NCBI GenBank assembly: GCA_014871385.1
Contig: CM026424.1
Coordinates: 12,619,115-12,683,114, forward strand
DNA: 64,000 nt
Reading direction: 5' to 3'
Source of the DNA: Ceratodon purpureus
Taxonomy: Eukaryota > Streptophyta > Bryopsida > Pseudoditrichales > Ditrichaceae
The first letter of the stretch is position 1, and every line of letters begins with the position of its first letter. Made by a program: the position numbers and the translations under genes. The notes beneath the pieces are model-generated. The model searched no databases and had not been told where the DNA came from. It saw only the letters and a list, made by a program, of their open reading frames with translations. Shown piece after piece: positions 4,128 to 57,160 of the stretch.

Positions 4128-4798
4128 TTAACCCTTTACTGCCTAGGTGACCACTGAGTGGTCAATGCAACGTGGGAGATGCAAATAGGTGGGAATCTAT
4201 GAAGAATTGGAACTTTAATCGTGATGTTCAGATTTGCATATACATATTTAAACACCTTTTACATTTTTTTTAATCAATTTGGAGTTGTGCTGCCATTAAA
4301 ATATCTATGAACAAAAAGTCTTGTAAACACTTCAAATACTTGAAAATATATTAAAAAAAAACTTACAAATACAACACATGTACCATGCAATATTTCTTAT
4401 GTATGGAAGTTTGTTATCTTTTTAAATGTTTTTGGATTGTGTTCTCTTCTGTATCTTCCATTGTTATATGTGATTTAATCTTGACTAATGTACCCAAATT
4501 TTTCAATTTTCAAGGTACAAAAATTTGTACTAAAATGTGTATGGATAAGTCACTTTCACTTATAAAATTCACAATAATTATATGTGAGTCTATTCTTGAA
4601 ATGGAAAACTATAACGAAGTGGTGTTGATATAGGGCATTGTTGAACTTCTATACTTATAATTTCAAAATTTTAACTTTAAAATCACACTTCCCAAAATCT
4701 CATTTTTGAATGTACATTATATGGTTGAAATACATACTATAGTTTTCTAATTCCACCATTGGATGAATATCTAATTTTAACAAAATGTGTGCTCTTAA
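4128..4798 (-). mobile_element. piggyBac-like TTAA element with subterminal palindrome
   Basis: TTAA at 4128-4131 is followed by CCCTTTACTGCC and then the palindrome-like GTGACCACTGAGTGGTC. The interior (for example AAGTCACTTTCACTT near 4,549) matches the reverse complement of the element at 52,298-52,993, so it is the same family in opposite orientation. The far end is placed at the TTAA at 4795-4798, where the match runs out. CCCTTT tips with a hairpin beside a TTAA target are the hallmark of piggyBac-superfamily MITEs. No transposase is encoded. Confidence 0.65.
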
Positions 4799-9900: not shown

Positions 9901-10031
9901 AGAGCCTTTGACATTTTTTGCAAATTCTTTTTCTCGTGGCGGTGGCATTGCATATTTGCCTCATAAATCCTAAAAAAAACTACTAAACAAAAGCTATTCA
10001 TATATTTCAGGAGCAAAGAAGTGTAGCACAT
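6960..10031 (-). pseudogene. broken coding-like block of unknown family, probably an old mobile or foreign element
   Basis: Minus-strand pieces between 10,031 and 6,960 read like protein rather than noise: a basic-aromatic piece (9,663-10,031), a 166-residue piece with ...EQEHFELTKFMDVHKRFASA... (9,077-9,577), a piece with ...TKLVLYDYDITYLFSL... (8,488-8,745), a piece with ...EKFGGKDALDYSAKNIPEG... (7,897-8,112) and an acidic serine-rich tail (6,976-7,188). All lie on one strand in a plausible order, as expected for one long decayed gene. It is broken in many places. I could not match it to a transposase, viral or host family. Confidence 0.4.
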
Positions 10032-10519
10032 GCCTCACCCCTACAACAAACCACAAAATTGAAACTTAAAAGCATTATTGGTGTCCCACATGCCGCACCT
10101 CTACAAATAACCATATGGTTGAAAACAAATAACATAGAATCTATGAGTATATAACATCTGCCTCATTCAAGCATACTTTATATAAAAAATTATAGTAATA
10201 ATTAGAAAGGAATGGAAAAGAGAGGAGTAGTTATTGCGATGCAGAAAGAAGAGATGATAAAATAGAAATCGTAATGATTTTACTATCACGTACTTAGGGT
10301 TGCCGTATAGATGAAAGTCTTGTGGTACGAGTTTGTAAGTCTTGTGCTGATTTTCTAATTAAAAACTCTAATACTAGAGCAATGCAGATATACTATTGTG
10401 GTATAAAAGTTGATTGCCGCACCCATGTACAATCTGTGCGCCAAAATTTAGCAGTACAAATTATGAGAAGGCAACGTTACTAAGCTTATACAAGTAGTAG
10501 CAACTCCTTTATGCAAGAC

Positions 10520-11363: not shown

Positions 11364-11584
11364 CATTAGGTGCAAAACGGGGTCTGGAAAAGGCCGTGTA
11401 AGCGGCACGTGAGAGAAAAAAATGGCCGCTGCCCGCGTGCTTTTTGACATGGCACTGGCTGTGCCACCGTGGCGCCACCACCCGCCACGGGGGCTCGAAC
11501 CAATGACCTCCCCGCGAGGCGTGTGGAGGGTACAAGCTACTGTGGTAGGCTGACACCATCTGCCCACTTGGGACCAAACCCCGA
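11364..11584 (-). mobile_element. tRNA-like SINE candidate
   Basis: Read on the minus strand, this GC-rich 220-bp block contains GGTTCGAGCCC (11,491-11,501), a perfect match to the RNA polymerase III B-box consensus. About 60 bases upstream is TGGGCAGATGG, close to an A-box. The block ends in a 40-bp segment (11,364-11,403) that recurs inverted at 12,466-12,505. Box spacing and GC-richness in an AT-rich neighbourhood fit a tRNA-derived SINE. No clear poly(A) tail is seen on this copy. Confidence 0.5.
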
Positions 11585-12323
11585 GGGGGGGAAGCACAAT
11601 AAAGTGTACCACAAAAGTGCTTAGCTCATTGCCAATTTCAGCCATTGTTGTAAACACTAAGAAAAGTGACATATAATTTGATGATATGTTGGAAGGGGCT
11701 TTGGGTATAGAAAATAGACTTGGTCATCTTGAGTCTATGAAATTTTGGAACCGATATGTGCCTTTTACGAAGCTTTACGAGTCATGGCAAGTGATCCAAA
11801 GTGAATGCAATCATTTGAAGAAGTGGACAAAAAAGAGTGCACAAATGTTAGAAATCACTTTTGACTGCGCTGTACCCTCCGATTGTGAATTGCGGTTTCA
11901 AAAATGGGCCTAAGCAATTCCTTTGGAAGTTTGTACAGCCGAAAAGTTTCGTTGGGACGTTTTCAGGGAGCTGTTTTCGACGAAACTTTTTGTGAGGTTT
12001 TTTTCACCGAACATTGTTTTTTAAATTGGAAAAAACATCCTCTAAAGACAATAGAGGGCCCCAAATGAAGAAATTAAGACTTTGGAAAAGTTCATTTTCA
12101 TGATTTAGAACTAGCGGTCAAATTAAGTTTCAATTGAAGATGTTTTTTTTATGGAGATGCCTGTAAGATACCTTGTGACACCTTGAAAAGTGACTAAAAT
12201 GCTCAAAAACTACACCAAAATGCTCAAAATCAGCTTTGAGCAATAAAAAACAGCACACTTCATATTCACTTCCTAGTGATCACATGTTGCACTTTGTGGT
12301 ACACTTTATTGTGCTCTCCCCCC
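11585..12323. mobile_element. foldback MITE, copy 1 (GGGGGGAAGC family)
   Basis: The left end reads GGGGGGGAAGCACAATAAAG, continuing TGTACCACAAAAGTGC. The right end is its inverse, ending in CTTTATTGTGCTCTCCCCCC at 12,323, so the terminal inverted repeats exceed 30 bp. The interior shares a block around 12,010-12,090 (GAACATTG, GAGGGCCCC) with the second copy at 55,734-56,473, in opposite orientation. The length of 739 bp with no open frame fits a non-autonomous DNA element. A short GAG repeat flanks both sides, which may be the target duplication. Confidence 0.75.
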
Positions 12324-12544
12324 GAGACAAGTCATTCATGTCACAACTATTATTCCTCGGAGGATTGTTCACAGTGCGTCACGCAGTTCTGTGCGGGCAG
12401 CAACTCTGGCACCCGCTGCCAGCGACAGTGCGGGGGACAGCAGGGGGTTCACCTAGAAAGGGCAGGCTTACACGGCCTTTTCCAGACCCCGTTTTGCACC
12501 TAATGTATTCAAAATTGTAGACTTACCAAAAAAAAAAAAAAAAA
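12324..12544 (+). mobile_element. second SINE-like unit with poly(A) tail
   Basis: A GC-rich block on the plus strand abuts the MITE's right end. Its 3' part (12,466-12,505) is the perfect inverted match of 11,364-11,403. After a short spacer it ends in a run of about 18 A (12,528-12,545), as expected of a retroposed SINE. The 5' half differs from the first unit, so it may be a different subfamily or a rearranged copy. Confidence 0.45.
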
Positions 12545-17354: not shown

Positions 17355-19841
17355 CCCTTCTGAATGCCAGAATCTGGCATCCTCTCTCATTCTCATTCTC
17401 GGATGATTTTCATCCATATCTTGTTGGGAATGGTTTTTGGTGTTAAGAGGGCACTTCATAATATTATAATTGAATTATTGTTCAAAAGATATTGAATAGG
17501 GTTTATTACATAATTGAATAGGAAGTTTTGGAGCTCTTAGCCCCTGGGATTTTTGCCAGATTTTGTGTAAAGGAGGGCTAATCAGGGGGCTAACGCACAT
17601 TGTGTCAGCTCCCGCTAATGTCTCAAAAACTTCCTATGTTATAATATGTTATGGGTTTTCTATTTTTTTTAAGTTGTTATTTGATTTAGAACATGAAAAT
17701 GGCCTTTAAGGGATGTGCAATAGACAAAGAAAATGAAGTTCACAACTCCATGTTCTTTTTTGATTTAGATTTTTGAACATTTCTTAACTTTGAGTATTTT
17801 TTAGCAATTAAAGTTTAGAAACTTCTTGTTGTGAAGAAGTTTTCTAAGAAATATAGATGATTATTGTCTACCATGATGTTCTTGATTGTAATTCATACCT
17901 TTTGTAAAAATATTTGAGCTCCGTAGTGTGTTGTTTAAGTAATATGGTTTTTTATTTCTAATCCTTTTAAAAATTTATTTTTTTAAATTATTATCAAATT
18001 TGTTGAAAATTCTTTCAAATTCTGAAAAAATAATTTATTTCATTTGGTAAATGGAAAATGATGGATTTTTGTCTCATTCACATTGATGAAACTGAAGTTC
18101 CAACATAAAATTTGACTTCATAGGTCACCAATTCCTTTTTTTAAGAATCAAATTACTAATTTTGGTGCCGATTTTTATACCGTAACACCATAGCAAGTTT
18201 GTCACCTTGCAAATGAATATTTATTAATGTTTTTTGAAAAAATAAGGTTTGCTTTTCAAAAACTGAGTTTATCAATTTTGTTTTTCAACAAAAAATTTAG
18301 TGAAAATATCCTTAAGCGGCTTAGAAATAAAGAATATAGATAAAACTAATTTATTTTATTTTTGTTTTTTTGCTTTTATAAATTTTATATTTTTATATAA
18401 TTTTATTTTTAGAATTGTTTTTGGATGAACTTGCTATAGTACTACAGTACACATGACAATTTGGATTTGCTCTCAACCAATGCATTCTATCAGGTTACAT
18501 ATACAATAGAGAACCTAGTACCATGGCTTTCCACATTCTATGCTTCCATCAGGTATTTGAAGAAAAATTCTGTATGACTAAATTTGAATTTTGTCTTTTT
18601 CTTTAATGATATAATTTAAAAAATCAGATTTTGAATTATTATTTTGAAGCAAAGTATTGAATACATTATTAGACTAAAAATACTTTTATTTAACTTTTTG
18701 TATTAAATCTAATGGAAATATATCATAGACATTTGTTTTTGAGTTATTTATCATTAAATAAACAAAAGAATTCTACATCTAATAGAATTATACTCTATTT
18801 TCTTAATATTAATAAGTATTTGTTTAGATTTTTTACCATTTTCAGCACTATAGATATTGGTGTACAATAAACATTAAAGCCACCATCTTGTTGTAGTATT
18901 GGATTTCTCACTCTAATGCCACTTATCATATGATTTTATAATATGTTCTTCAAGTTTGTGATTAATTTGGCTCAAACTTGACGGCAATCAATATGCTCCA
19001 AAATGAATAATTATGGTTAGTAACTTAATATTAATCCTTGCATGATTAATCAACCAAATATGGTCGATGAGTTGTTGTTATTCCATAACTGAACAAGATC
19101 GGTGAAGAGCAAAATTGTAGGGAACAATAGCCGGAAAGAAATGTATGCTTGATTTATTGCACAAAATAGAGATGCATTTGGACTCCAAATGCACCTACTA
19201 CAGCTAACTATATCTGGCAATGAATTTCTCAAAATGCTAAAAAATGCTTAAAATGCAATGCTCATGGTGTTGTTGGATAGATCTTCAAAGTCTTCACAAC
19301 ATCTACTCCATGTGTTTTTTCCGAGTCTAAATAGTTTGGTCGCTGATTCTTGAAGAATGCACAAAGGTCATGTATACGTTGTGGATTACGCCCGACTTGG
19401 AAGACCATAATACCCTGGTTCATACAGTAAATCTCACACATATTTGGCCACTAGCATGTATACTAAGGGGGCTACATATTTATACGAGTGGATCTCATTT
19501 TTGACCATTGATTTATTTATTGCACTAAAAAATACATTCAGGCCCCTCAAAGAACATTGATTTCCAAATACAAAAGTAGTCATGAAAGGGTTAACATTGG
19601 ATTGTAAAAAATTGTCAATTACATTTTATACTTTATAATTAAAATTTAATTTTGATAATTTTATCTAATGTGTAGCTAAATCATTTGGAGAAACGAAGAA
19701 AGAAATATAGTACTAGAATTGATAGTTCTTATTTTCTTTTTATTAAAATTAGATAATTATAAATCCATCTAGCATTAGACAAAATCAAATATTTTAATTT
19801 AATTCGTAAAAGATCCACATTTTAGGCGAGTTTAGAGACTT
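17355..19841. other. AT-rich intergenic DNA
   Basis: There is no sustained coding frame. The sequence is AT-rich with homopolymer A/T runs. A lone TTAA-type end in the opposite sense (ATGAAAGGG then TTAA) lies at 19,591-19,594, perhaps the far end of the element starting at 17,351, but the inverted-repeat match is too poor to call. Confidence 0.4.
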
Positions 19842-37800: not shown

Positions 37801-40800
37801 GTGAACGATGAGGGAGAAGATAGTGACGAGTTTTCAGTGGATCGGCGGGATCGGACCAGTGAAGCCGGCACGAGTGGGAGTAGTAGCGAGGAGGATGATG
37901 TGGACGGGGAAGCGGATGACTTTTCGGACGCAAGGGAGAGGATGGGGGAACCGAGCACAAGCGGGCGGGAGCGAGAGCCCGTGTTGTTGAGCGGAGCGGG
38001 TATCTCTCGGGTGATAAACACGGTGGAGGTGAAGCGAGAGATCGTGGAGACAAGATTGGTGAGCAAGCCCGTGGGAGCGTCTGAGAAGGTGTGCCTTGTA
38101 GAGAATAGTGGGTGGATGATATTTGAGGGAGAGGAGTGGTGCTCGTGGCTGTGATGTTGTAGGGGTGGTTAAAGAGGTGGCCCTTGTAGAGGGGTCGATG
38201 GCCTCGCGTAGCCTTCAGTATGCACTCGGATTTTGGGGAATGCGGAGTTCGTGGCGATCTGCCTAGACCGCCATGATTCGGGTGGCTACTGTCCTTGGTT
38301 GTGGAAAATGTGAGGGGTTTCCGGTCCAGTCCGCTGATGGTGTGTGGGTGGACGGTGCTGTGCAATGTGGCAGATGGACGTGCAGGGGAAGGTGTTGTAT
38401 TCCGAGGCCCACAATACTGGGAGGAACGGGTTCTCGGGAGCAGGGTCTTCGAAGAGTGGGGCGTCGTCGACATCGCTGCTGCTGGGAGGGGGCGGTGAGG
38501 TGGATGCCGAGACAGCTGCAGCTGTTGCAAAGGTGAGCGAGGCCGCGAGGCGGCGAGGCGATCGTATGATGAGGAGGTCAGCGAATGCAAGTGGAGGCGG
38601 CGAGGTTGGCAGCAAGTCAGAGGTGGGGACGATTCTGGGAACGGGAGGGGCAAAGGGGAGGCGAGCAGGTGATGGGAGTCTCTCCCCGCGGGGCGTGTCT
38701 CTTGCAGTAGAAGGTGATCCGAGTAGACATCCAGCAGATGCGGCGAGATTCGACAGCATGGCGGCGAACGGAGGTGTGGGAGGCGAGTCGGAGAATGTGG
38801 GTGACGGAGCGTTGGTGGAGTCTGACGTGGGCACGGAGGGCAAAGCAGAGGACGGGTTGGACGTGATCCGTGGGTTGGGTCCCGGTGAAGGTGGGAGTGC
38901 AGATGTGGCGGGCGCAGAAGCGGAGAACGTGGAGGTGGGGGAGGAGAAGAACAGCGAGGAGAGGCTGGCCGACTTTGCTGCGGCCGCTCAGTCAGCGCAA
39001 CCCACGGGGTACACATTCTCGACGACGAAAGTGAAGACGAAGCTGCCGTTTCTGCTGAAGCACTCGCTGCGGGAGTACCAGCACATCGGGCTGGATTGGC
39101 TGGTGACGATGTACGAGAAGCGGCTGAACGGGATCCTGGCAGACGAGATGGGGCTGGGGAAGACGATCATGACGATCGCACTGCTGGCGCACCTGGCGTG
39201 CGAGAAAGGCATATGGGGTCCGCATCTGATCGTGGTGCCGACGAGCGTGATGTTGAACTGGGAGACGGAGTTCATGAAATGGTGCCCGGCGTTCAAGATA
39301 CTGACGTACTTCGGGAGCGCCAAGGAAAGGAAGGTGAAGCGACAGGGATGGTCGAGAGCGAACTCGTTCCACGTGTGCATCACGACGTACCGGCTGGTGA
39401 TACAGGACGCGAAGGCATTCAAGCGGAAGAAGTGGAAGTACCTGATACTGGACGAGGCGCATCTGATCAAGAACTGGAAGTCGCAGAGATGGCAGACGCT
39501 GCTGAACTTCAACTCGAAGCGGCGGATCCTTCTGACGGGGACTCCTCTGCAGAACGATCTGATGGAGCTGTGGTCTCTCATGCACTTCCTGATGCCTCAC
39601 GTGTTCCAGTCTCATCAGGAGTTCCGCGACTGGTTTTCGAATCCGATAACGGGGATGGTGGAGGGCGAGGACCAGGTATTGACGCGGGCGTGTTGGGTTG
39701 TGGAGCATAGTGGGGATGTTGGGGGTGGGGGGCACTGATTGCGTGTGTGAGTAAGGATGGGATCTGAGCGTGTGATTGTTTCCAGGTGAACAAGGAGCTG
39801 GTGGATCGGTTGCACAACGTGCTGCGGCCTTTCCTGCTGCGACGGTTGAAGAAGGACGTGGAGAAGCAGCTGCCGGGGAAGTTCGAGCACGTGATACGAT
39901 GCCGTCTGTCGAAGCGGCAGCGGAATCTGTACGAGGACTTCATGGCGAGCTCGGACACGCAGGCGACTCTGTCGAGCGGCAACTTTCTGGGCCTGATCAA
40001 CGTGCTGATGCAGCTGCGGAAGGTGTGCAATCATCCGGACCTGTTCGAGGGTCGGCCGATCGTCTCTTCGTTCGACATGCCGGGCATGGAGGTGCATCTG
40101 AGCTCTGCGGCGTGCTCGGCGATGTGTAGGAGCCCGTTGGAAGGGGTGGACATGGAGACGCTGAACCTGCAGTTCAGTGGGCTGAGCGGGGCGATGAGCA
40201 ATTGGGAGGCAGAGGAGGTGGCGACGATAAAGACTCCGGGTCCGGTGATCGTGGAACTGGCGAGCACGGGCGTGGACACGTGGGAGCAGCATCAGTCGAA
40301 GCACAAGCCGAGCAGGGAGGTTCGGAGCGTGATGGAGGAGATCCATTCGGTGCTGAGGGGGGAGAGGGAGAGGCGGAGGCGAGAGAGGGTGGTGGCACTG
40401 TGGATGGTGAACGAGTTGCGGTGCGGGCGGCAGCCGGTGTACGGGGCGGACTTTCTGAAGAGCGTGGAGGTGCTGCATCCGGTGCACGACGTGCACAGGG
40501 TGGAGGGCAATCCGAGGCGGTACCTGGAGTTCTCGAGCATCGTGTCGGAGATGGTGCAGCTGCCTCTGACGCGGTGCGAACGCGTGATGGATGTGGTGAC
40601 CTCGTTCATGTTCGCGATTCCGGCCGCCCGGGCGCCGCTTCCCGTGGCTTGGTGCAGCCACGCGATAGGTGGGGGGCCGGCGTTGAGGCAGTCGATCTCG
40701 GAGGAGGTGCTGCAAGAGGCGAGCAGCATGCTGGTGCCTCTTCGGCCGGTGGTGGTGAGACGGCAGCTGTTCTTCCCCGATCGGAGGCTGCTGCAGTTCG

Positions 40801-43800
40801 ACTGCGGGAAGCTGCAGGAGCTGGCGGTGCTACTCCGGAGGCTGAAGTCGGAGGGGCACAGGGCGCTGATCTTCACGCAGATGACGAAGATGCTGGACGT
40901 GTTGGAGTCGTTCATCAACCTGTACGGGTACACGTACATGCGGCTGGACGGGTCGACGAAGCCAGAGCAGCGGCAGATTCTGATGCAGCGGTTCAACACG
41001 AATCCGAAGATATTTCTGTTCATTCTGTCGACGCGGAGCGGGGGCGTGGGGATCAACCTGGTGGGCGCGGACACGGTGATCTTCTACGACAGCGATTGGA
41101 ATCCAGCGATGGACTTGCAAGCCCAGGATAGGTGTCACCGGATCGGGCAGACCCGAGAGGTGCACATATACCGGCTGATCAGCGAGAGCACGATCGAGGA
41201 GAACATCCTGAAGAAGGCGAATCAGAAGCGGATCCTGGACGATCTGGTGATCCAGAGCGGGAGCTACAACACGGACTTCTTCAAGAAGTTGGACCCGATG
41301 GAGCTGTTCTCCGGGCTGAAGGGGGTGAAGGTGGGTGGATCCGCGGGCAAGGGTTCTGGAGCGACGGGCGGGGCGGGTTCCGGCGGTGGGACCCCGGACG
41401 CGGCGTCGGCGAAGGCGTTCGAACAGAAGGAGCTGTCGAATGCGGAAGTGGAAGCCGCGCTGAAGAATGCGGAAGACGAGGCAGACTACATGGCGATGAA
41501 GCGAGTGGAGCAGGAAGAGGCCGCGGAGCATCAAGAGTTCACGGAGGAGGTGTTCGCCGGAAACTTGGACGACGAAGATCTGGCGGACGACTTGGACGAG
41601 AACGGGAGAAGCGGAAGGCCTCCGAGCGACGTTGCGGTGGCGGGCGGTCCTGCAGCAGGGGGGGAGAGAGTCGCGGAAGAGGGTGGGGCGGTGGTGGGAA
41701 CAGAGGAGCTACCCTTTGGGGAGTCTTCGATTCTGGCCACCGAGGCAGACGAGGAGATGGACATGCTCGCGGACGTGCGGCAGATGGCAGCTGCGGCAGC
41801 AGCATCCGGACGAGGGAGCGGATCGTTCGAGGACCAGCTGCGTCCAGTGGAGCGGTATGCCATGCGATTCTTGGAGCTATGGGACCCCCGGGTGGATAAC
41901 TTGGCCGTGGTAGCACAGGTACTGTGTGGGGCGTTCAGAGACCTGGTGACTGCAGTCTGGGGTGTGTGTGGAAGTGCATAGATTGGTGGGGTTGTAGGTC
42001 CTCGATGTGTGTGTCGGCTCGGGTTTGTGTCGGGACTTGGAGTTATTTGGGGGTGGTGAAATGCATGACGACATGGTAAGGTGTGCGAGGCAAGTGGATT
42101 GGGGCTGTTTTGGCATTGCACATGTTGCTGCAGATTAGTTGGTGAGCATTTCCGATGATGCCCTGACGAAGGGGTGTAGGAAGAACAACATAGTTACAGC
42201 GTGCAGTGCAGTTCAGTGCCGGTGTGAATTGGATGAATAGTTGGAGTCGCAGGCGACCGTATCGTGCGTTGCTGGATTGATCCGTGGATTCGCACTGGAA
42301 GAGCATTGGGATCGCAGTTGTCTGAGATGTATGCGTGGTGAATGCAGGTGGCATTCGAGGAGAAGGAGTGGGAACTGGATCAACTAGAGAAGCTGAAGGA
42401 GGAGCAGGAAGCAGAGATTGACGAGGACAATGAGCCTTTGTTTTACGAAAGTACGTGTTGAGCGTTTCTTTCTGCAATTTGAAGTTGTGTGAGTGGGAGG
42501 TGAGAGTTTGTTGACGAGGGGTAGGACGATGCGGGTGCGTGGTTGAGCTCAGAGCGGAGAAGTTGTGTGCTGAGAGCTTGGAGCTTTCTGTTTGTTTGTG
42601 TGTTACGTTGTCGTGATGCAAATGCTGGAGGGACAGGCCTGTTGTTTTGTGATCTGTGGTCTGTGGTGGGCGAGTTGCATGGTCGTTCTGTGCGTGAGCA
42701 ATTCCGGGATTGCGTGGTTGTGCGGTCGAGTTGGCAGTGGTGCTCATCGGTAGGATAGGATTGTTTCGCGGTTGTTGTGGATTGAAGCATGGGGAGGGGC
42801 GTGTGGAATGACCGTGCTTGTCTTGAATGTATTGCAGCTTGGGACACAGCATTAGCTGATGAGGCGTATCGCCAGCAAGTCGATATCCTCGCTCAGCAAC
42901 AGGTTTGCACTGCACCGCACTGCAACTTTGGGAGGCTGGTTTGGATGCTTTCAGAAAGTTCAGCAAGGGTTGGTGTTTTTGTGTGTATCATTGTACCATG
43001 GAATGGTTGGTCGGGGGAGGCTGGTCTCTCATCGTTCGTAGTAGGCGAGATACATCGGATTATGTTTTGGGAGTGATAGAAGTTGATGCAGCCGAGTGGC
43101 TCTGAGGCCGTCTGTGTTGAGCAGGAACAGAAGCAGTTGGAATGGGAAGCAATGGAGGAAGAGATGCGTGATGCCGACAGGTGAGTTTCCCTTTCAAGCT
43201 GGTCATGTATGAGATGCAGTATTCGTGGGATGGAGGGTGCTCTGAGTATTAGTGTGTGGTGGAGTCGAGGAATAGAGACGGCGGCTCTGGCATAGAAGTG
43301 TGTGGTGGCTGTCGTGGTCGTCTGGGATGGTGTGGCACTGGGTTGTAGAGTTTTGATGGGGGTGAAGGTCGTATTTGATGATGACGTTCGATGGTGTGTG
43401 GATGAGCTGGAGCAGGGCCCTGGCTGAAGCTGCGGCGACGGTGAGAGGTGCTGAGAACTTCACGCTGAAGTCGAAGGGGAAGAAGAAGTCGAAGAAGGCG
43501 AAGTTCAAATCTCTGGCGGAGGGCTCTCTGGTGTCCGATACGGAGGATAACTCCGTGGGAGAGGATTACCACGCGGAAGCGGGCGGCGACCCTTCGTACG
43601 GGGATGAGCAGTCGGAGATGATGCATCTGCCTCATCGGAGCCTGTCTCAGAGAAAGCGAAAGGCACCGAAGTTACTGGAGGAAGAGATGTCGGCGGACAA
43701 GCAATCGAAGAAGGTGAAGAAGGATCAGTCGGTGAGGGAGAAAGGAACGGGCGCGGACAAGGTTGTTTCTGAACTGGTGGTCCAATGGTGTGTGTGTAGA

Positions 43801-46800
43801 GGGAGTTGGGGGTAGGAGTATGGTACAAGTATTGGAAGCGTGCAGAGTTGCAGGTTTGCGAGGCGTAGGTGGTGTAGGTTTGCATGAGCGTGGGTGAAGC
43901 AGCATGCGTTGAGGCGCACGCGCATTGGGGTGGGGCATCCTCCATGGGTGCGGCACTGACTTGTTTTGGAAACGATTTGTGCGTGTTTTGCAGGGCAAGG
44001 GGAGGGCGCGGACGTTCGAGGACAGCTTGTTCAGAACAATCTTCGGCATTTCCAGCGACCATAAACAGTCGGGTGGCGGGCGGCAGGATGGCGATGGGAC
44101 GGGAGGCGGGTCGTCGAGCGGTGGCGGGCATGGCGGTGGTGCGAGCAGCGGGAAGGAGAAGTTGGGGAAACTGTCGATCTCAGGAACGGTGGCGAAGAAG
44201 GGACCGCTGGTGATGCTGGAGAAGGAACGGAAGAAGGATAGTGTGAGGTCCGTGGAGCAGCTCCCCCCTGCGTCACCGTGGACGCACGGCGAGGATGCTG
44301 TGCTGTGCGCGGTGGTGCACGAGTACGGAGGGAACTGGCACCTGGCGAGCGATGCACTGGCAGGGGGACCCGACGGTGGTGTGTACAGAGGGCGACACCG
44401 TCATCCGATTCACTGCAGGGAGCGGTTCCGGCAGCTGCTGGCTCAGAATGTGGCCGCAGCGAGCGGGGATCCAACCAGCGAGAAGAGTGCACAGAACGCG
44501 GCGACGAATGCGCAGCTGAGAGTGACAGAGGTAGGCATGGGTGACGTGGGGATGGCGTTGATCGTGCAGCATGTGGGAGGGGCATGAGGATTGTGGCGAG
44601 GGTGAGAGTGGCTGATCGTGATTGAGTTGGGTGTTTCAGGAACACACGAAGCGGCTACTGGACGCAGTGTTGCAGCTGCCAGAGCAGGAGCTTCTCCTGC
44701 AGCGGCATTTTGTGGCCGCGTTGGCGGCAGTACAGAATTGGGCGAAGGTGGGTCCGCAGCTTGAGTCGGAGAGGGTGGGCGGAGGAGGTGCTGCGGACTC
44801 GCCGTGCGGCGGGCGCACCTTCATCTCGCTGAAGAGTCTGGTGAAGCCGCAGGCGGCGGCGAGCAAGATTGGGGGCGGGAAGTTGTCCCCTCGTGAAGTG
44901 TCGGCGGCCTTGGTGCAGGCAGAAAGAGAGAACAAATCTGTGAGTAATCAAGCCACGGTGAAGCCGCATGCGAAGGGGCTGGTTCCGAAGCATGCGGGCG
45001 TGGCGGGGGAGAACGAGGGCTTCAGCGTGGCGCAGTTCCTGGTTGGGTCTCCCGTGCAGGGCGAGTCCGGCGCAGGCGAGGGCGGGAGTGGTTTGCAGGC
45101 ACAAAGCGTGGCTTCGGCGGTGACCCTGGAGGATTTGCTGGGGTTCACTCCACCGTCGCCTGCCGCTGGTGTGAGTGTGAAGGCCGTGCGGCATCTGGCA
45201 GAAATGTTGGTGGGGAATCGGTTCAGGTGGGTATATCCTCTCTCTTTCGCCTTTGCATGTTAGCGACATCGTGGGAATCTGGTAGTGGACCCAGGGATGT
45301 GGTGGTAGGTTGGGCGTAGGGATTGGTATCCGGAGAAAATGTGGAGGATGCATGGTCGGGTTCCACAGGTGGCAGGAGGTGCAGAGTGTGCTTGATGCGT
45401 GGAGTTGACTTGGCCTGTTGTGCCGGTAGGCGTGGATGGTGATGCTGTTGTGCGTTCTGACGGGGTGGCATGGTGCCGACAATCGCAGGTTTGCCTCGAA
45501 GATCGGGTGGGACGGAGCCATCCGCGACTGGGCCGCGGCCGGGGGCTCTGGCACAGGCGTGTTGGGGCTCCACATTCCTTCCAAGGGGAGAGGAGTTCCG
45601 AAGAAGAGGCCCGCCGGCGACCCAAGCAGACCCCCGAAAGCAAAAGCAGCGAAGACGTCGAAGTCGGACGCGAAGAAGGGGCCTGCGGACGCGACGGGCG
45701 AGGAGGCAGGTCCTCCATCGGGAGCGAACGGACAGGATTCGAGTGTCCCTGGAGGGCGAGACGCAGAGTCGAACGGGAAGGGGGCGGTGGCGGGAGCAGA
45801 GTGGGTTCGAAAGGCCGGCGTTAAGAAGCCGAAGAAGAAGGCTCCGAATTCCGCAGCGTCGACGTCACCACCCGGTTCGGGCGGATTGGACCTGAACGTC
45901 CAGCAGCCCGGCAGCCCGGCTCGGGGTGAGCGCTCTTCCAAGAGTGGGAAGAAGGGCAGCCCCGGAGTCAGAACACCGGGAGCTCCTAAGCCGGGGCAGA
46001 GGACGGAGAAGAAGGAGAAGTCGGTGAAGAAGGTGGCATCGCAATCCGGGCAGGCCACTGATTCTGAGGCAGGGTCTGGCCGTCGAGCGGGGTCGGGCAA
46101 CCCAGCGTCGGTGGGCAGAGACCTGAACGGCGGGAGCAGCAGAGAGGGTTCTTTGGGAGCAAGGGGAATAGATCTGAACGGGTCCAGCGACGACGACGTG
46201 ACGATCGTGGGGGTGTCACCCGGCAACCGATTCGATGGATTTGAGTCCCCTGTGGCAGCCCCAGCTCGGAAGCCGAAGATATATCGACATGCGACGAAGA
46301 GGTCGGAGGCGGCGGGGTCAGCGGAGCCAAACCTGGCGGAGTACGGAGGGGACGTGGAGGAGCTGGGGTTCCCAGCGTTGAGGTCGAGCGGAGCGGGTTT
46401 TGGAGCCCTCCACGGCGAGGATTCGAGCTTAGCATCACACCTGATGAGCAGGCTGTCGGGGTCTTCAGGTCCGGACCTACTGTCGTTGGGCGTCCCCGAG
46501 CAACTGCACTGGCCTCCCGCAGCTGGCGCGTGGCCTCCCGTTCCGTCTCTGAATGATCTGGACTTCAGCGCAGAGCTGCCGTCGCTGCCGTTTTCGGAGG
46601 GCAAGCAGAGGCCGTCGGGGGCGGGGTCACCGGTGAGGGGCTCTCCTCCGGGGCGGGAAGCAGGGCGAAGCGTGGGAAGGGGTTCGTCCCCGAGCTTGGC
46701 GCGTTCGCAAACGTCGGGGCGGTCGTCGAGAGCGGGCCACGTGCAGGAGAACGGCGGGCAGGGGCCAGCATGGATGTTGGAGAGACAACCCCGAGGCGCT

Positions 46801-47178
46801 CCCAGCAGCGAGAGGCAGGGAGCGGGTCGAAGCAGTGTAGCCGGCGGAAGCGATCTTTCGAGAGCTGTGCTGCGTCTGGGTCCGTCAAGCCCCGTTCGAG
46901 GTGCATCGGTGTCCGGTGCTTCGGCGTCGCAGCAGCATCATCAGCGGCCCCATGCGTCGCCGGGTCGCAGCATGGCGGGGGCGTCGCTGTCCGGCAGGCG
47001 AACCCCTTCGCTGGGTCCGCAGATGTACCAGCCTGGAGCATTTCCAGATCGAGCATCGGGGCCAGAGTCGCCAGTGGACACGGGGCTGGCGCTGTCTCTG
47101 GGATCGGGCGCGCACAAGAAACAGGCGGGTCCGAGAGCAGCACGGGATGTGCAGCCACACCCGTCGTCAGGTCGGTAG
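31835..47178 (+). CDS. PIE1: PIE1, SWR1-complex Swi2/Snf2-family ATPase, complete, 21 exons
   Basis: Exons: 31835-33022, 33530-33637, 33886-33993, 34136-34216, 34568-34656, 34981-35215, 35363-35498, 35875-36323, 36592-36630, 37036-37107, 37314-37376, 37798-38058, 38386-39675, 39786-41918, 42348-42450, 42838-42902, 43125-43180, 43416-43761, 43994-44530, 44640-45226, 45489-47178. They join in frame (9636 nt, 3211 aa). PIE1 is the catalytic ATPase of SWR1, which exchanges H2A for H2A.Z in nucleosomes. Domains: AT-hook RGRPRK (74-79); HSA (about 397-500, KTHWDFVLEEMAWLAK); acidic linkers; split ATPase with Walker A DEMGLGKT (Lys1202), DEAH (1299-1302), TGTPLQND and RCHRIGQTR (about 1822); SANT (about 2368-2428, WTHGEDAVLCAVVHEYG). 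Sequence around the motor is near identical to Arabidopsis PIE1, which is about 2,055 aa; the extra length lies in the N-terminal exon and in Gly/Ser-rich C-terminal exons. The start codon is the least certain point. Confidence 0.93.
32510..32890 (+). repeat. in-frame tandem repeats in PIE1 exon 1
   Basis: About three to four diverged units of roughly 32 residues carry the core EKRVGGKSHRERRDGG or variants (EARVGAMSHREGSDAA, EKRVGGKSQRERTDAG). The repeat sits in the low-complexity N-terminal extension ahead of the HSA domain. The units differ from one another but keep the frame. Confidence 0.75.
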
Positions 47179-47945: not shown

Positions 47946-49540
47946 TCAACCCCTAATGTCGAATGCACTCAAAATTGCAGAAAACCCTCAAAATTGCCCT
48001 CTTTAAATGCAAGGTGCAAAGTTTTAATTTTTGATGTATTTTTGAATATGCAACTATAAGATCTTGTACCTAACTTGTATGTGCATATGTATGTCAAATC
48101 TTAAATTCAAATTCCTTATCAATTGTGAGATCGTAATGTTTAAAGATGGAAAAAAAGTTTTTTTGATTGTTGGGAAAAGGATAACTAGTATTTTGAGGGC
48201 CAAACAAACCATTTTTGGTAGAAAATTTGATATGAGGCTCTTCAAATACTTGTTTTTGGGTTGGTTAGGAACATGCGTTTGCAATTTTTACCCTCATATG
48301 ACCTATAAAACCTATAGAAATGAAATGCTTGATTATTCATATAGAAATTCAACTACAAAGGCCATTCTTTGACAATAAAAAAGGCATGGGAAGAGTGATT
48401 GGATTGAAAATCCTAACAGTGAGATCATGCCTTAACCCCTAAATGCCTAAACGACCAAAAATTGGTTGTTCTCATTCTTTCAAGTTCCATAACTGTCATC
48501 CAAATGACAACTTTTCATCCATTTTTTTTTCATGTTGTAAAGTTGAGAGATATCTATCTAACCTCATAATGAATCCTCAAAATGATAATTTCTTGAATTT
48601 TGGTGCCTCCCTAAAGTCCAAAATATCAATACTGTGTGTGTATTTTAAAATTTCTTAAAATAGATAGCTGGAACACAATTTGGACTATTGGGATGATCTT
48701 TTTGGCATTTGAGGTAAACTAATGAAATGTAGCTTAACAAATATGTTTTCCGGTCCAATTTAAAATTTTGAAAAATACCTAAAACTAAGTGATTTATAGC
48801 TGGTATAAGATGAAGGGGTATAGTAGTGGCTACTTCTTGATTTTCCACGGTTTTAGGTTTTTTCATCATAGTTTTGAATTAAAACATAACTTCTGAGCAT
48901 TGTAACTAAAATAAAGTTCTTGGTTGTCATATGCATCTCTGGTAAATATTTTGTAATTTTTTAGTATAACCTATATTTGATATGAATTTTCTTTGTTTGT
49001 TTTGATTTGAAAAAATATATTAATTATATAATGAAACCAATAATTTTGATAAAATCATTGCTTGTAGATAACATGTGTATCTTACTAAGAAAAATTAAAA
49101 ATTAATGTTTTACATCATTTACAGTAGCAAAATAGAGCATCCAAAGTCAAAGTCTATTTCCGTGGTCATAGGTTCAGGCATTTGGGGGTTAAAACCTTAT
49201 TTACTTGAAGAAAAAAAAAAACTTGATGAAAAGGAAAATTTCAATTTTTGGTGAATTTTTAAAGTTTTTGTAATTTAATTGATTTTGGGCTGTAGTTTAT
49301 GAGAATAAATGAGCATATACCGTAGTTTGTGCAGTTTTGGGCAGATTTCAAATAGTGTTTTTGAACTTTGACTGGGAAATTCTCCTAAAGTATGAAGCAT
49401 GAGATGACTTTTTGGAAAGGTATGGAAAACCTCTACTATTTGCCAAAAATAGCAACTTCATTTGATCTGAATTTTGTAACTGCAAGCCTGATCGGACCGA
49501 AATCAACCCTGATTGGGTTGATTTCAACATTAGGAGTTAA
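47946..49540. mobile_element. TTAA-type element carrying another TTAA element inside it
   Basis: The left end is TCAA (47946-47949, a one-base variant of TTAA) followed by CCCCTAATGTCGAA. The right end is TTCAACATTAGGAG followed by TTAA (49537-49540). About 15 of 17 terminal bases match when inverted. The element at 48,432-49,192 is nested in it. Without the insert it is about 0.83 kb and has no transposase. Confidence 0.55.
48432..49192. mobile_element. TTAA-flanked piggyBac-like element, nested
   Basis: TTAA (48432-48435) is followed by CCCCTAAATGCC, with GGCATTTGGGGG before TTAA (49189-49192). Terminal repeats match at 11 of 12 positions. The body is 753 bp, AT-rich and non-coding. Confidence 0.75.
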
Positions 49541-49570
49541 CTAATTTTCTCCACCTATATCTATTCTTCC

Positions 49571-51720
49571 GTACCTTCATCCTTCTTTGAATATGCGTTT
49601 CCTCAAATCGACAATCTCATTCTCCTTACAAATTTTTGTGCACGATTTCTTTTGGAGTGGTGTGAATTGGTGTGAATCTTAAAGCACTTGAGTTCCTAGA
49701 AGTTCACCGTTCAAAAGGAACTCAACACATTCTAGCTCACCGTTTGATTGGGCTACTTGGAATCACTCTCAATAATGACCCTTAACCCTTTAGGGTGTTT
49801 CTTGATAAATTACTGTTTTATTGAGACTATTAATAGTATCCAACTGTATGAATGTAAGCATAGCTTAATGCAACAAGTGTTAATTAAATCTTGGTAAGAT
49901 CGGACCTTTGGATTGGAAGATTATAATGTCTTTGATATGTATAATGTACACTTAAAATGGAGATTTTGGAGGTGTGTAACTTCAAGGATAAATAGAATTT
50001 GGGTTAAATGTTCAAAATTAAAAGTAAAGATGTCTAGTAATGGCCTCTATCAGCACCTCTTCATTACGATCTTTCATGTCGATGAACACACTTATACATA
50101 ATTATTATAGATTTTATAAGTGAGAGTGACTTATCCGTGTATGGTTTAGGATATAATTATATAATAAAATAAGAAAGGAGTTGATACATTGATCAAGAGC
50201 AAAATATATACACTCCTAGAATACGAACAAGAGATTACAATCCAAAAAAAAATTCCAAGATTACAAACTTGCAAACACAAGAAATAGCACATAGTACATG
50301 TGTCATTTTTACTACATAGTACATGTATCATGTTTGTGAGTATTTACAGTATTTTGACAATGTGACAATGTTTTGGTGTTTTATACATAGGTATTTGTAT
50401 AGCTAAGAAAGTCAGATTTCAAATTTTCTTTTTGGATCATCTAAAAAATCAAAAGTTGCACATCTAAACTTCAGAAGTTGAATTGAAATGGTTCACAGAT
50501 TTTTCAACATTTCATTTTCTAGTGATCCACTGATCATTTTCTAAGTGGTCACTTAAGTACTAAAAGATTAACTCCGCGAGTGTCGAGATTTCTGGCGATT
50601 GACCACCACAAAGTAACCAATGTCTCGTGGATGGTATTCATCCAAATTCCATGACATATTACAAAAATTCTATGGTTAGCTCTGTGTGCATGTTGAATTT
50701 ATAGGCAGGGATGATAAGTGATTTTTTGTGTTTAATTTCATAGTGAAATGATCATTCATAAAAATTCCTGAAATTTTAGTTTGAAAATTGTCCATCAAAT
50801 TTTTTGGATTAAAGGGATCAAAAGATTAGTAGCCTTATGACATAATTATTCATCATCCAAATCTCACTGTCTATAGAAAAGCAATCCACCAAATTTGACA
50901 TTTAAGCAATTAACACCTTGATGTTTATATAAATTGGTGTATTTAATAAATTATAAATTATGTATTTGTCTATAATGATTGTTCAAATAGCTTGGCTTTA
51001 TCCATTTTTTTATATTAAATTAATGTGGACAAATTGAACTTGGTGTCTTAATGAAGGTGTCCTATTGATTATGACAATGACTATACAGAAACACAAAAGA
51101 ATACTCTACGTCGACAGTAGGTTTGTTCACCCTTGAATGATTTTTTTCTAAAATTTAACTTTTCTAAGATTTGTCTTTCTAAAATTAAACTTTTCATTTT
51201 TTTTCCAAAAACAATTATTCAAAAATGCCTTAGATGGATCAAAAATAGAGAAATGTCACTCAGTATAAATTCTCATATTTTGTTTTTCCATCCTTAAATT
51301 TTTGTTTTTATTTTATTTTAGAATAGTTTATAATTAAACCTGTTATTAATATACAGTACATCTTACGTTTTTTATTAAACATGATTGCAAATCTAAAATT
51401 TCAATTTCAATTTCTATGTGACTTATTATGAAATGGATTTTGTGAGAATCTGAATGCCTTATTATAATGGCAGATTTAAAAATGAATTCTTAAGACTTGC
51501 ATAAAGATGCCAAAAGGTATTGGCTTTGTAGGTTTGCAATTCTATATTTCTTATTAAATCACCCAAAAGATATATTGTTATTGATGGTTGATGGTTTTCT
51601 TGATGCAAATATTTTGCAACATTGCTCAATTACCTCCACGATTTTATGTACAAGTAACTGAGACAATTGTCTTTGGAAATGTGTAAGAACAACCTCAATG
51701 TTCAATTGAATATATTTTCT
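49571..51720 (+). repeat. tandem duplication, copy A
   Basis: Starts at CCTTCATCCTTCTTTG and runs to GTTCAATTGAATATATTT. The same series of landmarks recurs in order in copy B (51,721-57,160), head to tail. Without its single TTAA insertion it is about 1.36 kb. It is AT-rich, without a coding frame. Confidence 0.8.
49782..50571. mobile_element. piggyBac-like TTAA element in duplication copy A
   Basis: TTAA at both ends (49782-49785 and 50568-50571) with a body of 782 bp. The interior (for example AATCTTGGTAAGATCGGACC) is shared with the element at 52,298-52,993. Copy B has the unoccupied site GACCCTTCACGCCGCGAG at 51,908-51,925, which proves the insertion and its borders. Confidence 0.8.
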
Positions 51721-52297
51721 GTGCCTTCATCCTTCTTTGGGTATCGGTTTCCTCAAATCGACAATCACATTTTCCTTACGAATTTTTGTGAACGATTTAT
51801 ATTGGAGTGGTGTGAATTGGTGTGAATCTCAGAAGTTAACCATTTGAATGGAACAGCATACTCCAGCTCACCGTTTAATTTGGCTACTTGGAATCACTCT
51901 GAATAGTGACCCTTCACGCCGCGAGTGTCTAAATTTAGGGAGATTGACCACCATAATGTCTAGATTTAGGGCGATTTATGGCATTCATTCATTGTCCAAA
52001 ATATATTATAGAAATTTTATAGTTGTTAGCTTTGTGTACGTGTTATTTTTTAAGGCTAAGATGAGATCTTAATTGTTCATGCTTTATTTCATGGTCAAAT
52101 GATTCAAAGAGAATTCTTAAAATTTTAGTTTGAAAAGAATCCATCATAACTACCCATCAAAAGTTTTGGATTAAGAGATTAAAGGTATAAAATGATTAGT
52201 TGCTTTATGTCATTATTATTTGTCATTATTATTCATCATTTAACTAACATCTTACAAATCTCACTATCTATAGGAAAGGAATCCATCACATTTGGCA

Positions 52298-52993
52298 TTA
52301 ACCCTTTGGTGCCCAGAGAAATCTTGGTAAGATCGGACCGTTGGATTATAAGATTATAATATGTATTTGATCAATAATGCACACTTAATATGGATTATAA
52401 GATTTTTTGAGGTGTGTGACTTCAGTCTTCAAGGTTAATTAGAATTTGGGTTAAATTTTCAAAATTAGAAGTGAAGAGGTTAAACAATGGCCTATATCGA
52501 CACCTCTTCATTGCAATCTTTCATGTCAAGAACACACTCATACATAATTATCGTAGATTTTACAAGTGAAAGTGACTTATCTAAGTATGGTTCTAGACAA
52601 ATTTTATATGTTAAAATAAGAAACCAGTTGGTACATTGATCAAGATCCGAATATATACAGTAGTACTAGAACATGAACAAGAGAACACAATCCCAAACAA
52701 ATATTCAAGATAACAAACTTGCAAATACAAGAAATACCACATAGTACATGTATTGTATTTGTAAGTATTTGCTATTTTTTGAGGTATTTGAAGTATTTTG
52801 GTGTTTTGTACATAGGTATTTTGAATAGCTAAGAAAGTCAGATTTTAAACTTTCTTTTTGCATCATGTACAAAATCAAAAAATGCACATGTGAACTTCAC
52901 AAGTCGAAGTGAGATAGTTCATAGATTTTTCAGCGTTTCATTTTCTAGTGATTCAGTGACCACTTTGTGGTCACGTTGGCACTAAATGGTTAA
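52298..52993. mobile_element. piggyBac-like TTAA element with hairpin subterminus
   Basis: TTAA (52298-52301), CCCTTTGGTGCC ... GGCACTAAATGG, TTAA (52990-52993). Terminal repeats match at 10 of 12 positions. Near the right end is the palindrome GTGACCACTTTGTGGTCAC. The body is 688 bp without an open frame. It is related to the copies at 4,128 and 49,782. Confidence 0.85.
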
Positions 52994-53280
52994 ACAACAT
53001 ATTCATCAATTTGGAAATTTTCATGGTTCCAAGTGACATCATTTTTACATGAGTTATAGTATTTTTTCCAAATATATGAAGTGTATATTTTTTATGTAAT
53101 TTTTGGATGTTATTATAATTATACATTAAATATTTTTGCAAAGTTTGAACACAAAAACATGAATAAAATTATATCGGTCCTAGGAATAATATAAGAAAAA
53201 TTTGAGTGGTTCCAAAATTGGATTAAATTTCCAATTTAAAGAATATGGTGTTCTTATAACAATTAAGACTTTCATTAAAA
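52994..53280. mobile_element. small insertion flanked by TTAAACAA-like repeats
   Basis: This block is absent from duplication copy A. TTAAACAA lies at its left edge and TTAAAACAA at its right edge (about 53,275), which could be a target duplication of about 8 bp. Its own ends are not characterised. Confidence 0.35.
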
Positions 53281-53420
53281 CAATTAGCACTTTGATACTT
53301 ATATAGATTGCTATAATTATTAAATTAAAGTCCCACTATATGAACTATAATGGTTGTTCAAATAGCTTGACTTCAATTTATTTATTAGATTAACATTGTA
53401 GACAAATTGAACTCAATGCC

Positions 53421-54297
53421 TTACTCCCTGATTATCCTTAAAACCCAAAATGGTTTTTGCAATTTCAGGCAGCCTAGATGGGGATGTTAAAAGTAATATT
53501 TTTTTCAAGTTTTTTATTGGGTGCTCTGTTTATGGTAAGGTTTTTTTCAAGATTTTACTCGGTGCTCTGTTTATGGTAAGGTCTATGTAGTAAAAATTTT
53601 GGAGCCAAATTTAAATTTTAGAAGAATTTCATTACTAAATCAATATTGAAATTTCATAGTGACCCAAGTCAAAAAGCTGTCAAATTTTACAAGGGCAGCC
53701 TCCAAAACTTACAAAGACAAGCTTCAAAGTTTTTAGTAATTTTTGTCGAAATTCGAGATTTTTGAATTTTTTAAAAATTGTTTTTCTGAAAATCACAAAT
53801 TTATAAAAGTACCTACTCACCGTTCATTTTTTCCTTAGCTCACAAATTGTTTAGGTAATGCATGTTTTACCATTTTGTCAATTTTATACCTTTGTATAGA
53901 AAATAATTTGCATAAAGGTCTAAAAAGCGTTTTGAGTCCCTAAAATTTTGCATGAGCATACCTAATCTAGTTAGCTACATGGAAAAAAATATGGCCGGAA
54001 TGTTTGAGGTAACAATCTTCAAGTCTCCCTTCGCACCGTGGAAGCAATGCCTCTCAAGCAATTATGCTCAAAAAAACTTTTGCACAAACTTTGAATGTTA
54101 CGATCTTGAAAAGAATAATCATCTAAAGGTCAGTTTTTGGAACTAGAACTACAAATAGGCTTAGATTCAAGATCTTCTGGTTGAAAGTCTTTAAATTTTT
54201 TTTAAAAATTGTTTATACCCTTGGAAGTGCATAGAGGTAAATAATCGCAGTTTTGAGGTTTCAAGCTTCCAAAAACACAAGGAAAATTAGGGGTTAA
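53421..54297. mobile_element. TTAA-type element inserted in duplication copy B
   Basis: The left end TTACTCCCTGATTATCC and the inverse of the right end (TTAACCCCTAATTTTCC) match at about 12 of 17 positions, and TTAA closes it at 54294-54297. Copy A shows the uninterrupted site GTCTTAATGAAGGTGTC near 51,045. Confidence 0.65.
53499..53585. repeat. 43-bp tandem duplication
   Basis: A unit containing GGTGCTCTGTTTATGGTAAG occurs twice in tandem inside the TTAA element at 53,421. Confidence 0.85.
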
Positions 54298-55058
54298 TGA
54301 AGGTGTCTGAATGAATACGGCAGTACATGAACTTAAAAGAATATTGTAGGTTGATAGCATGTTTGATCACCTGGAACAAATGTTTTATGTTTGGAAATAA
54401 TTTTTTGGCATAATTAGATTTTTTTCTCAAAAATTTATTATTTACGTTTATTGTTCCGCCCAAAAAATGAATAAAAATAGCCTTATATTGATTAAAAATA
54501 AAAAAATAGAACATGAATAATTTCTCATATTTTTGTTTTTTGATCCTTAAAATTTCAAATTTTTTTGTTTTATTTTTTAGATTTATTTGTAAATGAAACT
54601 CTTATTGACGTTCACTATAACTTAAGTTTATTATTAAAAATGATTGTTAATAGAAAAAGTCAAAACGCCATCTCTAAGTGAATTGTAGTGAAATGTATTC
54701 TGTGAGAATTTGAATGGCTTTTTACAATAGGAGATTTAAAAATGGAACTCTTAACCCCAAAAGGCCCTTGAGACCCGATTCGGGCCGCAGCCCTATTGGG
54801 CAGGCTATTCTAAGGTTTCATAATTTTATTATTTTCTGAAATTTTTACTATGTATAGCTCTCAACACAAGCTTTCCAATGGCGCAAATTTCAAAGCATTT
54901 GGAGTTATGATGCAAAAGATATGAATTTAGAAGAATCTGTCTCAAATTTGGGCAGCCAATAACCAATGAAAATCTCCCATTTTCTGCCCAAGTTGCCTAT
55001 CATTCAATAGGGCAGAAAGTGACAAGACAAATTTTCAAAGGCATGGTTGTTCACAGGA

Positions 55059-55295
55059 CCTCCCCGTCCGATGTGCCATACGGTCCGCTCGTCCGTCCGT
55101 TAAGGATCAAGGAAGGTCCGTTTGATCGAGACTTAGGGTTGACCGTTCCAATCTTGCATATATTGAAGATATATACCTATTGATTTTTTCTAGGGGACCG
55201 CTATGTCCGATAAATGTCGGGGACCGACAGGTCCGTCCGTCCGAAGTGCCGTCTGGTTTTCATATTTGGCCCATGTCCGTCCGTTATGACAACCC
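55059..55295. repeat. GTCCGTCCG-rich block
   Basis: Repeated GTCCGTCCG and close variants on both flanks of a 100-bp AT-rich middle, ending GTCCGTCCGTTATGACAACC. It may be the two ends of a further small element inserted in the TTAA element. A similar GTCCGTTCGTCCG word occurs at 47,878. Confidence 0.5.
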
Positions 55296-55733
55296 TCTTC
55301 AAAGGGTGGGCACTTGCAAAATGATGGGTCCAATATTTTTACACCCATACATATTTTTGACGGTTTTCATCCAAGAAAATTTTCATCTAACTAACTATTT
55401 CCATCTAAAGAAGTTGCTGATTTTTTTCATCCAAATGACAACTATCATCCAAAGTTTAGTTTTCATTCAATTATATATATTTTTCATCCACATACAATTT
55501 TCATCCACTCCAAAATTTTTATCCATTACCTATGATGTGGCAAAGGGTACATCCACATGACCCCCTTTTACCAAAATTGCACTTTCAAAAAGAAATGAAA
55601 TATACAATTACACTTCAAAAAATTCTAGAAATTTGAGATCTACTCCGATTGCATTGAAATTGTTTTTGGTTCTTTTCTTCTTTGACTTCAACATATTTAC
55701 CGTTCAGATTTTCAATTGGACATTTTTAGATCA

Positions 55734-56473
55734 GGGGGGAAGCATGATAAAGTGTACAACAAAGTGACCGATGTGACCAAATGGAAGTGATTATGAAGTG
55801 TGCTGTTTTTCAAAGCTCAAATCTGATTCTGAGCATTTTGGTGTGGTTTTTGAGTGTTTTAGTCACTTTTTAAGGTGTCACAAGGTATCTTATATACATC
55901 TTCAGGAAGAAAGTATCTTCAATTGAAACTTAATTTGACCACTAGTTCTAAATCATGACAATGAACTTTTTCAATGTCTTCATTTCTTCATTTGGGGCCC
56001 TCTATTGACTTTAGAGGATGTTTTTTCCAATTTAAAAAACAATGTTCGGTGAAGAAAAAGTAACAAAAACTATCGCTGAAGTGACCCTATTTAAAAACAT
56101 CCTTGCCATACTTTTGGAATCCTAAATCAAACAATGAGTATATGAATTGCCTATTTTAGAATACCTCTTAAACATACAAAGAGCCCCACTTCATCAAAAG
56201 TGGTTTTTAGATAGTTTTTGATACTTTTGTAGCCACTTTTTCAAATATTTGCATCCACTTTGCTTGGGTTTGAAGCCCTCATACAATAACTTTAAAGTGT
56301 CTACTTAGCACGAAACTTTTCCGAGTTGTACAAAAACAAGTTGAGAATCTATATTAGCAAAAAAAATTGACTTCAATTACATCTTTCCATCACTTTTGTG
56401 CAGTTTTTGCAAAAGGGCTGAAATTGACAAATAGATAAGCACTTTTTCTGTACACTTTATCATGCTTCCCCCC
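55734..56473. mobile_element. foldback MITE, copy 2 (GGGGGGAAGC family)
   Basis: Terminal inverted repeats GGGGGGAAGCATGATAAAG plus TGTAC are perfect at both ends over at least 24 bases. ATCA flanks both sides (55,730-55,733 and 56,474-56,477), a 4-bp target duplication. The length is 740 bp, almost equal to copy 1 at 11,585, with the shared interior in opposite orientation. No open frame. Confidence 0.9.
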
Positions 56474-57160
56474 ATCACCCTTTAAGTAGTTTTAATTTTG
56501 AAGAATGTAACTTAGTAAGACAATTTCAGCACACCCCCTTTCACAAAATCAAGGATGTTTTTGCCTTTCCAAGGTCGTATGAGGCTCAAACTTTGTGTGC
56601 TTATACCTAACGTCCATACCTAAATGGATTGATGATCCTCCATTTATCAAATGTGTTTGCAAAGTATAGTTTTTGGGCATCAAGACTTAGGTATACTCAC
56701 GGGGCAGTGTCAAAAAAATTTTTTACAGTGACTTCAAATGTTACAATCTCAAAATTTATACGGTGGATTGTCTTCAGAATTGGTATACACCTTTTTGAAT
56801 AAGGAAGGTACAAGATCATACGGTTAAATATTCAATATTGAGTCTAAATTTAGAAAACAATAGAATTCTATCAATAGTGATATGTTTTTGGTAGTTCTAG
56901 CTTCAAAAACATCAATGGCCTTTAGGGGTTAAGATGCAAAAATGTAGTAGCTTTATAAGTTTGCAAATATTGTTTTTTGCTTTAAATCATCCAAAAAGAA
57001 ATTATACAGTTATTGATACTTCATGATTTTGTTGATGTAGGGCAGATGCAAATATTTTGGAGCATTGTTCCATTACCTTCTCAATTTTATGTACCAATAG
57101 CTGAGATGATTGTCTTTGCAAATGTATAAGAACAACCTGAATGTTCAATTGAATATATTT

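Follow-up and report, generated by a model that had tools for sequence, protein, structure and literature searches.

Layout of the locus and its surroundings

The window analysed here is the whole stretch of 64,000 nucleotides, in which positions 49559-57160 hold a head-to-tail duplication with a unit of about 1.4 kb once its inserts are left out. A BLAST search of this region against the window, in which TTAA words were not considered, yielded five collinear blocks shared by copy A and copy B (Table 1), a layout with which both ungapped repeats and a global alignment agree, and after removal of the inserts the copies are 82.0% identical over 1273 gap-free columns. The tandem duplication of about 1.4 kb described in an earlier inspection of the letters alone (hereafter the sequence-only reading) is thus real, and in the alignment of the two copies that it had proposed, the insert gaps fall at TTAA-type words. 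At the junction, a short word of TATAT type is common to the start of copy A and the end of copy B, which would fit a duplication of the microhomology type. Five TTAA elements (E0 to E4, including the element N1 nested in E4) together occupy 61% of positions 48432-57160; for E0, located just upstream of copy A, an empty counterpart is absent from the window.

Upstream, 38338-47175 contains a GC-rich gene for a helicase of the SWR1/SRCAP type, with a Myb-like domain downstream and a strong G-skew on the + strand. Using Pfam, the ORFs at 38-42 kb were assigned to an SNF2 helicase and a Myb-like domain was found further on; of the solved structures, those of SRCAP and SWR1 come nearest to the second of these ORFs. 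The gene would be plant PIE1, and the reading of the host as a member of the green lineage rests on its PIE1-like features. The noncoding stretch downstream of the gene would have been duplicated in tandem long ago. Elsewhere, the minus strand of 7146-10034 carries a run of protein-like ORF fragments, perhaps a decayed gene; five minus-strand fragments from there, together with 9080-9652, gave no Pfam match.

Table 1. Coordinates of the duplicated copies, the elements and repeats in and beside them, and the BLAST blocks shared by the copies (copy A / copy B).
Feature	Position	Strand	Target words (left; right)	Empty site in other copy	Remarks
Copy A	49559..51717	+			about 1365 bp without E1
Copy B	51710..57160	+			about 1416 bp without inserts
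E0	48432..49192	+			761 bp; fifth TTAA element; near-perfect TIR
E1	49782..50571	+	TTAA 49782-49785; TTAA 50568-50571	TTCA 51913-51916 (+), copy B	790 bp including both TTAA; copy A; E2 family
E2	52298..52993	+	TTAA 52298-52301; TTAA 52990-52993	TTAA 50902-50905 (+), copy A, facing E2+N2	696 bp; copy B; ends CCCTTTGGTGCC / CCATTTAGTGCC
N2	52993..53252	+			inverted-repeat element of about 260 bp abutting E2
E3	53421..54297	+	TTAC 53421-53424; TTAA 54294-54297	TTAA 51048-51051 (+), copy A	877 bp; copy B; left target now TTAC
E4	54751..56932	+	TTAA 54751-54754; TTAA 56929-56932	TTAA 51490-51493 (+), copy A	2182 bp including nested N1; copy B
N1	55734..56473	+			inverted-repeat element of 740 bp inside E4
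M in copy A	51104..51358	+			approximate borders; TIR P 0.18, not significant
M in copy B	54348..54617	+			matches 18185-18462 (+) and 2557-2836 (-); TIR P 0.97
A/B block 1	49559-49786 / 51710-51917				BLAST
A/B block 2	50568-50902 / 51913-52299				BLAST
A/B block 3	50899-51040 / 53273-53413				BLAST
A/B block 4	51048-51493 / 54294-54754				BLAST
A/B block 5	51504-51717 / 56931-57160				BLAST

Occupied and empty target sites

Copy A has E1 and copy B has E2, E3 and E4, four TTAA-bounded elements that the copies do not share. Each stands at TTAA-like words, and at the counterpart position the other copy has one single, unoccupied target word (TTAA three times, TTCA once), which fixes the borders of the element, in agreement with the sequence-only reading. 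That reading took TTAA as the target every time, with one base changed at one site; TTAA is indeed found at 10 of the 12 target words and the empty site of E1 reads TTCA, but the left word of E3 (TTAC) is also one base off, giving 2 of 12. About 10% of the region's positions have a TTAA no more than 3 nt away.

The use of paralogous empty sites as a test is well established under the name RESites (Related to Empty Sites), credited to Le et al. in PMC2213677, so the view that such a record is rarely so complete is not borne out. As in the RESites described there, a paralogous empty site here documents past mobility and fixes borders; the difference is that four sites occur here, reciprocally, in one tandem duplication. 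Both the types of element at this locus and the type of evidence that records them so clearly are already known; what the locus offers is borders and targets with an internal control, in one place, for three TTAA families (E1/E2, E3 and E4), which is useful for annotating the host genome.

A fourth site, at 52,298, had been listed as occupied in copy B only, and the TTAA element E2 is indeed confined to that copy, but the site is composite, with N2 adjoining E2 in such a way that the first base of N2 is the last target base of E2. The TIR of N2 is imperfect, with 24 of 28 bases matching (P 0.001 in the unanchored test, the lowest value it can give). For the bases after E2 that only copy B has, a join after the second of two 21-base repeats scores 77 vs 61 at the end of N2, so that N2 probably has a small duplication next to it. 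At the empty site of E4, copy A carries 12 adjoining bases that are absent from copy B; they may stem from a local duplication in A or have been lost from B. These 12 bases had escaped the sequence-only reading, as had N2 beside E2, the TTAC of E3, N1 within E4 and E0 upstream.

No TTAA element common to both copies was seen by BLAST or in the global A/B alignments. A shared insertion had been named as grounds for rejecting the original description, and while none was seen among TTAA elements, the alignment places the older repeat M at the same position in both copies. At least one older insertion is thus probably shared by the copies, as anything preceding the duplication would be. M in copy B is the only one of the two to match the relatives at 2.6 and 18.2 kb directly, M in copy A having no direct BLAST match to them at an E-value of 1e-4; in the unanchored TIR test, the relative at 2.6 kb was unsupported and that at 18.2 kb gave P 0.031.

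Identity of the elements

We infer that E1 to E4 are nonautonomous, MITE-like elements of the piggyBac type. Elements of this superfamily are described as having TTAA duplications and TIRs of 12-19 bp with CC[C/T]T (PMC2872659, PMC10175614). The TTAA target site duplication expected of a nonautonomous piggyBac-type element is present here, and short terminal inverted repeats are found at E0, E2, E3 and E4, those of E1 being not significant. We scored the identity between the two ends of each element over the 16 nt beside the target word, taking as background every ordered pair of TTAA sites that the window contains (127,449, the elements' own pairs included). Matches reached 14/16 for both E0 and E4 (fraction of TTAA pairs as good, 6e-5 in each case), 12/16 for E3 (5e-4), 11/16 for E2 (2e-3) and only 7/16 for E1 (0.16, not significant). 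In the unanchored TIR test, E4 (at the floor, P 0.001) and E2 (P 0.010) stand out, E3 (P 0.11) and E1 (P 0.47) are not significant, and a third copy of the E1/E2 family, at 4128-4802, is without support; one end of this third copy reads TTAACCCTTTACTGCC and its far end is unrecognisable (2/16). E1 is assigned to the TTAA elements because it is homologous to E2 and has an empty site.

All 10 ends of E0 to E4 begin with CC or TC; seven of them begin with CCC, and the others with TCT, CCA and TCC. The strict CC[C/T]T motif is found at two of the 10 (E1 left and E2 left). An end consensus, CCCYWWWNKGCC, was matched at 10 or more of 12 positions by 13 of 714 TTAA-adjacent ends, 40 Markov controls giving a mean of 1.5 and a maximum of 4, an enrichment that is partly circular in that 8 of the 13 matching ends come from E0 to E4. 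Similar termini were also observed at other candidate elements bounded by TTAA, or at single ends, at 2877-3453 (weak, 9/16), 4128-4802, 19031-19594 (12/16), 23756 and 30323.

Sola3 is a superfamily with TTAA duplications, and the assignment of the elements to Sola3, to Kolobok or to an undescribed superfamily of this kind draws on the failure to recover a transposase from 12 element ORFs and on the scarcity of the strict CCYT motif (2 of 10 ends). We consider it unlikely, given that the 10 ends starting with CC or TC do not resemble those of Kolobok, and do resemble those of coral piggyBac/TTAA MITEs. Kolobok elements have a TTAA target and ends of the form 5'-RR..YY-3' (PMC9587614); they and T2-MITEs thus share the target word with the elements studied here, but their ends start with RR (PMC6004289, PMC9587614), a form absent from E0 to E4. 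Among the coral families, ends include CCCTTTCACTGCCA and CCCCTCAGTGTCCG, much like the ends of E2 and of E0/E4, and one family starts with CCCC (PMC2872659). The coral CMITEs also have TTAA duplications, short inverted ends of CCC type and no coding capacity, and an empty-site allele was shown for them (PMC2872659); they differ in size (about 100 bp vs 0.7-2.2 kb here), and no autonomous partner was found here. From their TTAA target and CCC-type ends, the elements fit the piggyBac type best, and better than Kolobok. A 3 bp target duplication as in PIF/Harbinger (Tourist-like) elements was not found, E1, E2 and E4 being flanked by the full TTAA on both sides and the empty copy having TTAA or TTCA once; a 3 bp reading would presumably require A-initial elements with lopsided ends.

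Under the piggyBac-type assignment, a transposase encoded elsewhere would cut at TTAA, duplicate it and move E1 to E4. The 12 element ORFs searched, which cover a minority of the reading frames, gave 0 Pfam matches, and no transposase model was among the Pfam matches of 28 selected ORFs of the window, which were searched in place of a six-frame scan. Rfam (at the gathering threshold) and ARAGORN returned 0 matches, as did an exact scan of viral and prokaryotic contigs with one 28-base stretch, where little was expected.

If the host belongs to the green lineage, the locus concerns a class left unnamed, in the text available, by a survey of plant MITEs in 207 genomes, which reports five superfamilies and 'one special group' and whose main text has neither 'piggyBac' nor 'TTAA' (PMC12550479). 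In a plant MITE review, a term search gave 0 instances each of piggyBac, TTAA and 'empty site' (PMC12595863). TTAA/piggyBac elements are nonetheless not new to plants or algae: a table for a fern genome has 1230 PiggyBac entries (PMC6890710), PiggyBac families are present in a haptophyte (PMC5963040), and piggyBac is stated to have been isolated from plants (PMC10813416). Two papers that name both 'piggyBac' and 'Chara braunii' deal with other subjects, judging by titles.

Timing of the insertions

We give a probability of roughly 0.75 to the reading that a noncoding locus was duplicated and that E1 to E4 are nonautonomous piggyBac-type elements, most or all of which were inserted after the duplication; four insertions make up the shortest history. 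The sequence-only reading dated every insertion after the duplication and proposed comparing the divergence of the copies with that within each element family, a comparison that the window allows for E1/E2 but not for E3 and E4. E1 and E2 are 86% identical over 644 aligned columns. Across five gap settings, K2P distances were 0.157-0.204 between E1 and E2 and 0.193-0.246 between copies A and B, so that E1-E2 divergence is below copy divergence in all five settings, clearly in four (bootstrap P 0.006, 0.003, 0.003, 0.033 and 0.059; without M, 0.020, 0.018, 0.022, 0.048 and 0.189). The A/B blocks are uneven (K 0.14-0.33), pointing to uneven rates or to the alignment. If both E1 and E2 had already been present before the locus was duplicated, they would be expected to differ from each other at least as much as the copies do; since they differ less, E1 or E2 or both probably arrived after the duplication, a date for which these distances are moderate evidence. 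For E0, E3 and E4, BLAST found no further copy in the window, which rules out dating by divergence, so that for E3 and E4 an insertion after the duplication is argued from parsimony.

Excision by piggyBac is precise (PMC4625184), and an empty TTAA by itself therefore cannot separate a site that was never occupied from one that was vacated, which makes the dating of every insertion after the duplication too strong. An element could accordingly have been present before the duplication and then lost from one copy; in the sharpest form, E1 and E2 would descend from one ancestral element that moved in copy B from the first site to the second, or in copy A from the second to the first. The distance between E1 and E2 (K 0.158) is smaller than the distance of either from the third copy (0.279 for E1 and 0.230 for E2), which favours a common origin at the locus. 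This history requires more events, however, and a hop predicts that E1 and E2 differ as much as the copies do, whereas the observed value is lower in all five settings, if in one of them only at P 0.059; the left end of E1 is moreover about 83 bases longer than that of E2 (100 vs 17 bases outside the shared part), which argues against a single hopped element. We judge loss by excision quite unlikely, and give slightly less weight still to the fuller picture, in which a single piggyBac-type element made a short-range hop, recorded by E1 and E2, within a duplicated locus of a green-lineage genome whose small transposons current plant MITE catalogues would leave unclassed. It is highly improbable that one copy lost the unshared segments by deletion, for although any single gap can be read both ways, the gaps stop at the target word, E2, E3 and E4 have inverted ends inside them, and other parts of the window hold further copies of the E1/E2 family and of N1.

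With insertion after the duplication as the preferred reading, the layers would run from M to the duplication, then to E1 in copy A and E2, N2, E3 and E4 in copy B (E2 and N2 in either order), and lastly to N1 within E4. N1 has a relative in inverted orientation at 11583-12323, matching in the two end parts only and enclosed by a 40 bp identical inverted repeat at 11364-12505. This inverted repeat also encloses a stretch that may resemble a B box of tRNA type, and the interval is possibly a SINE-like or composite repeat. The interior of E4 is rich in CCGTCCG at 55050-55300, where another nested insertion may possibly lie.
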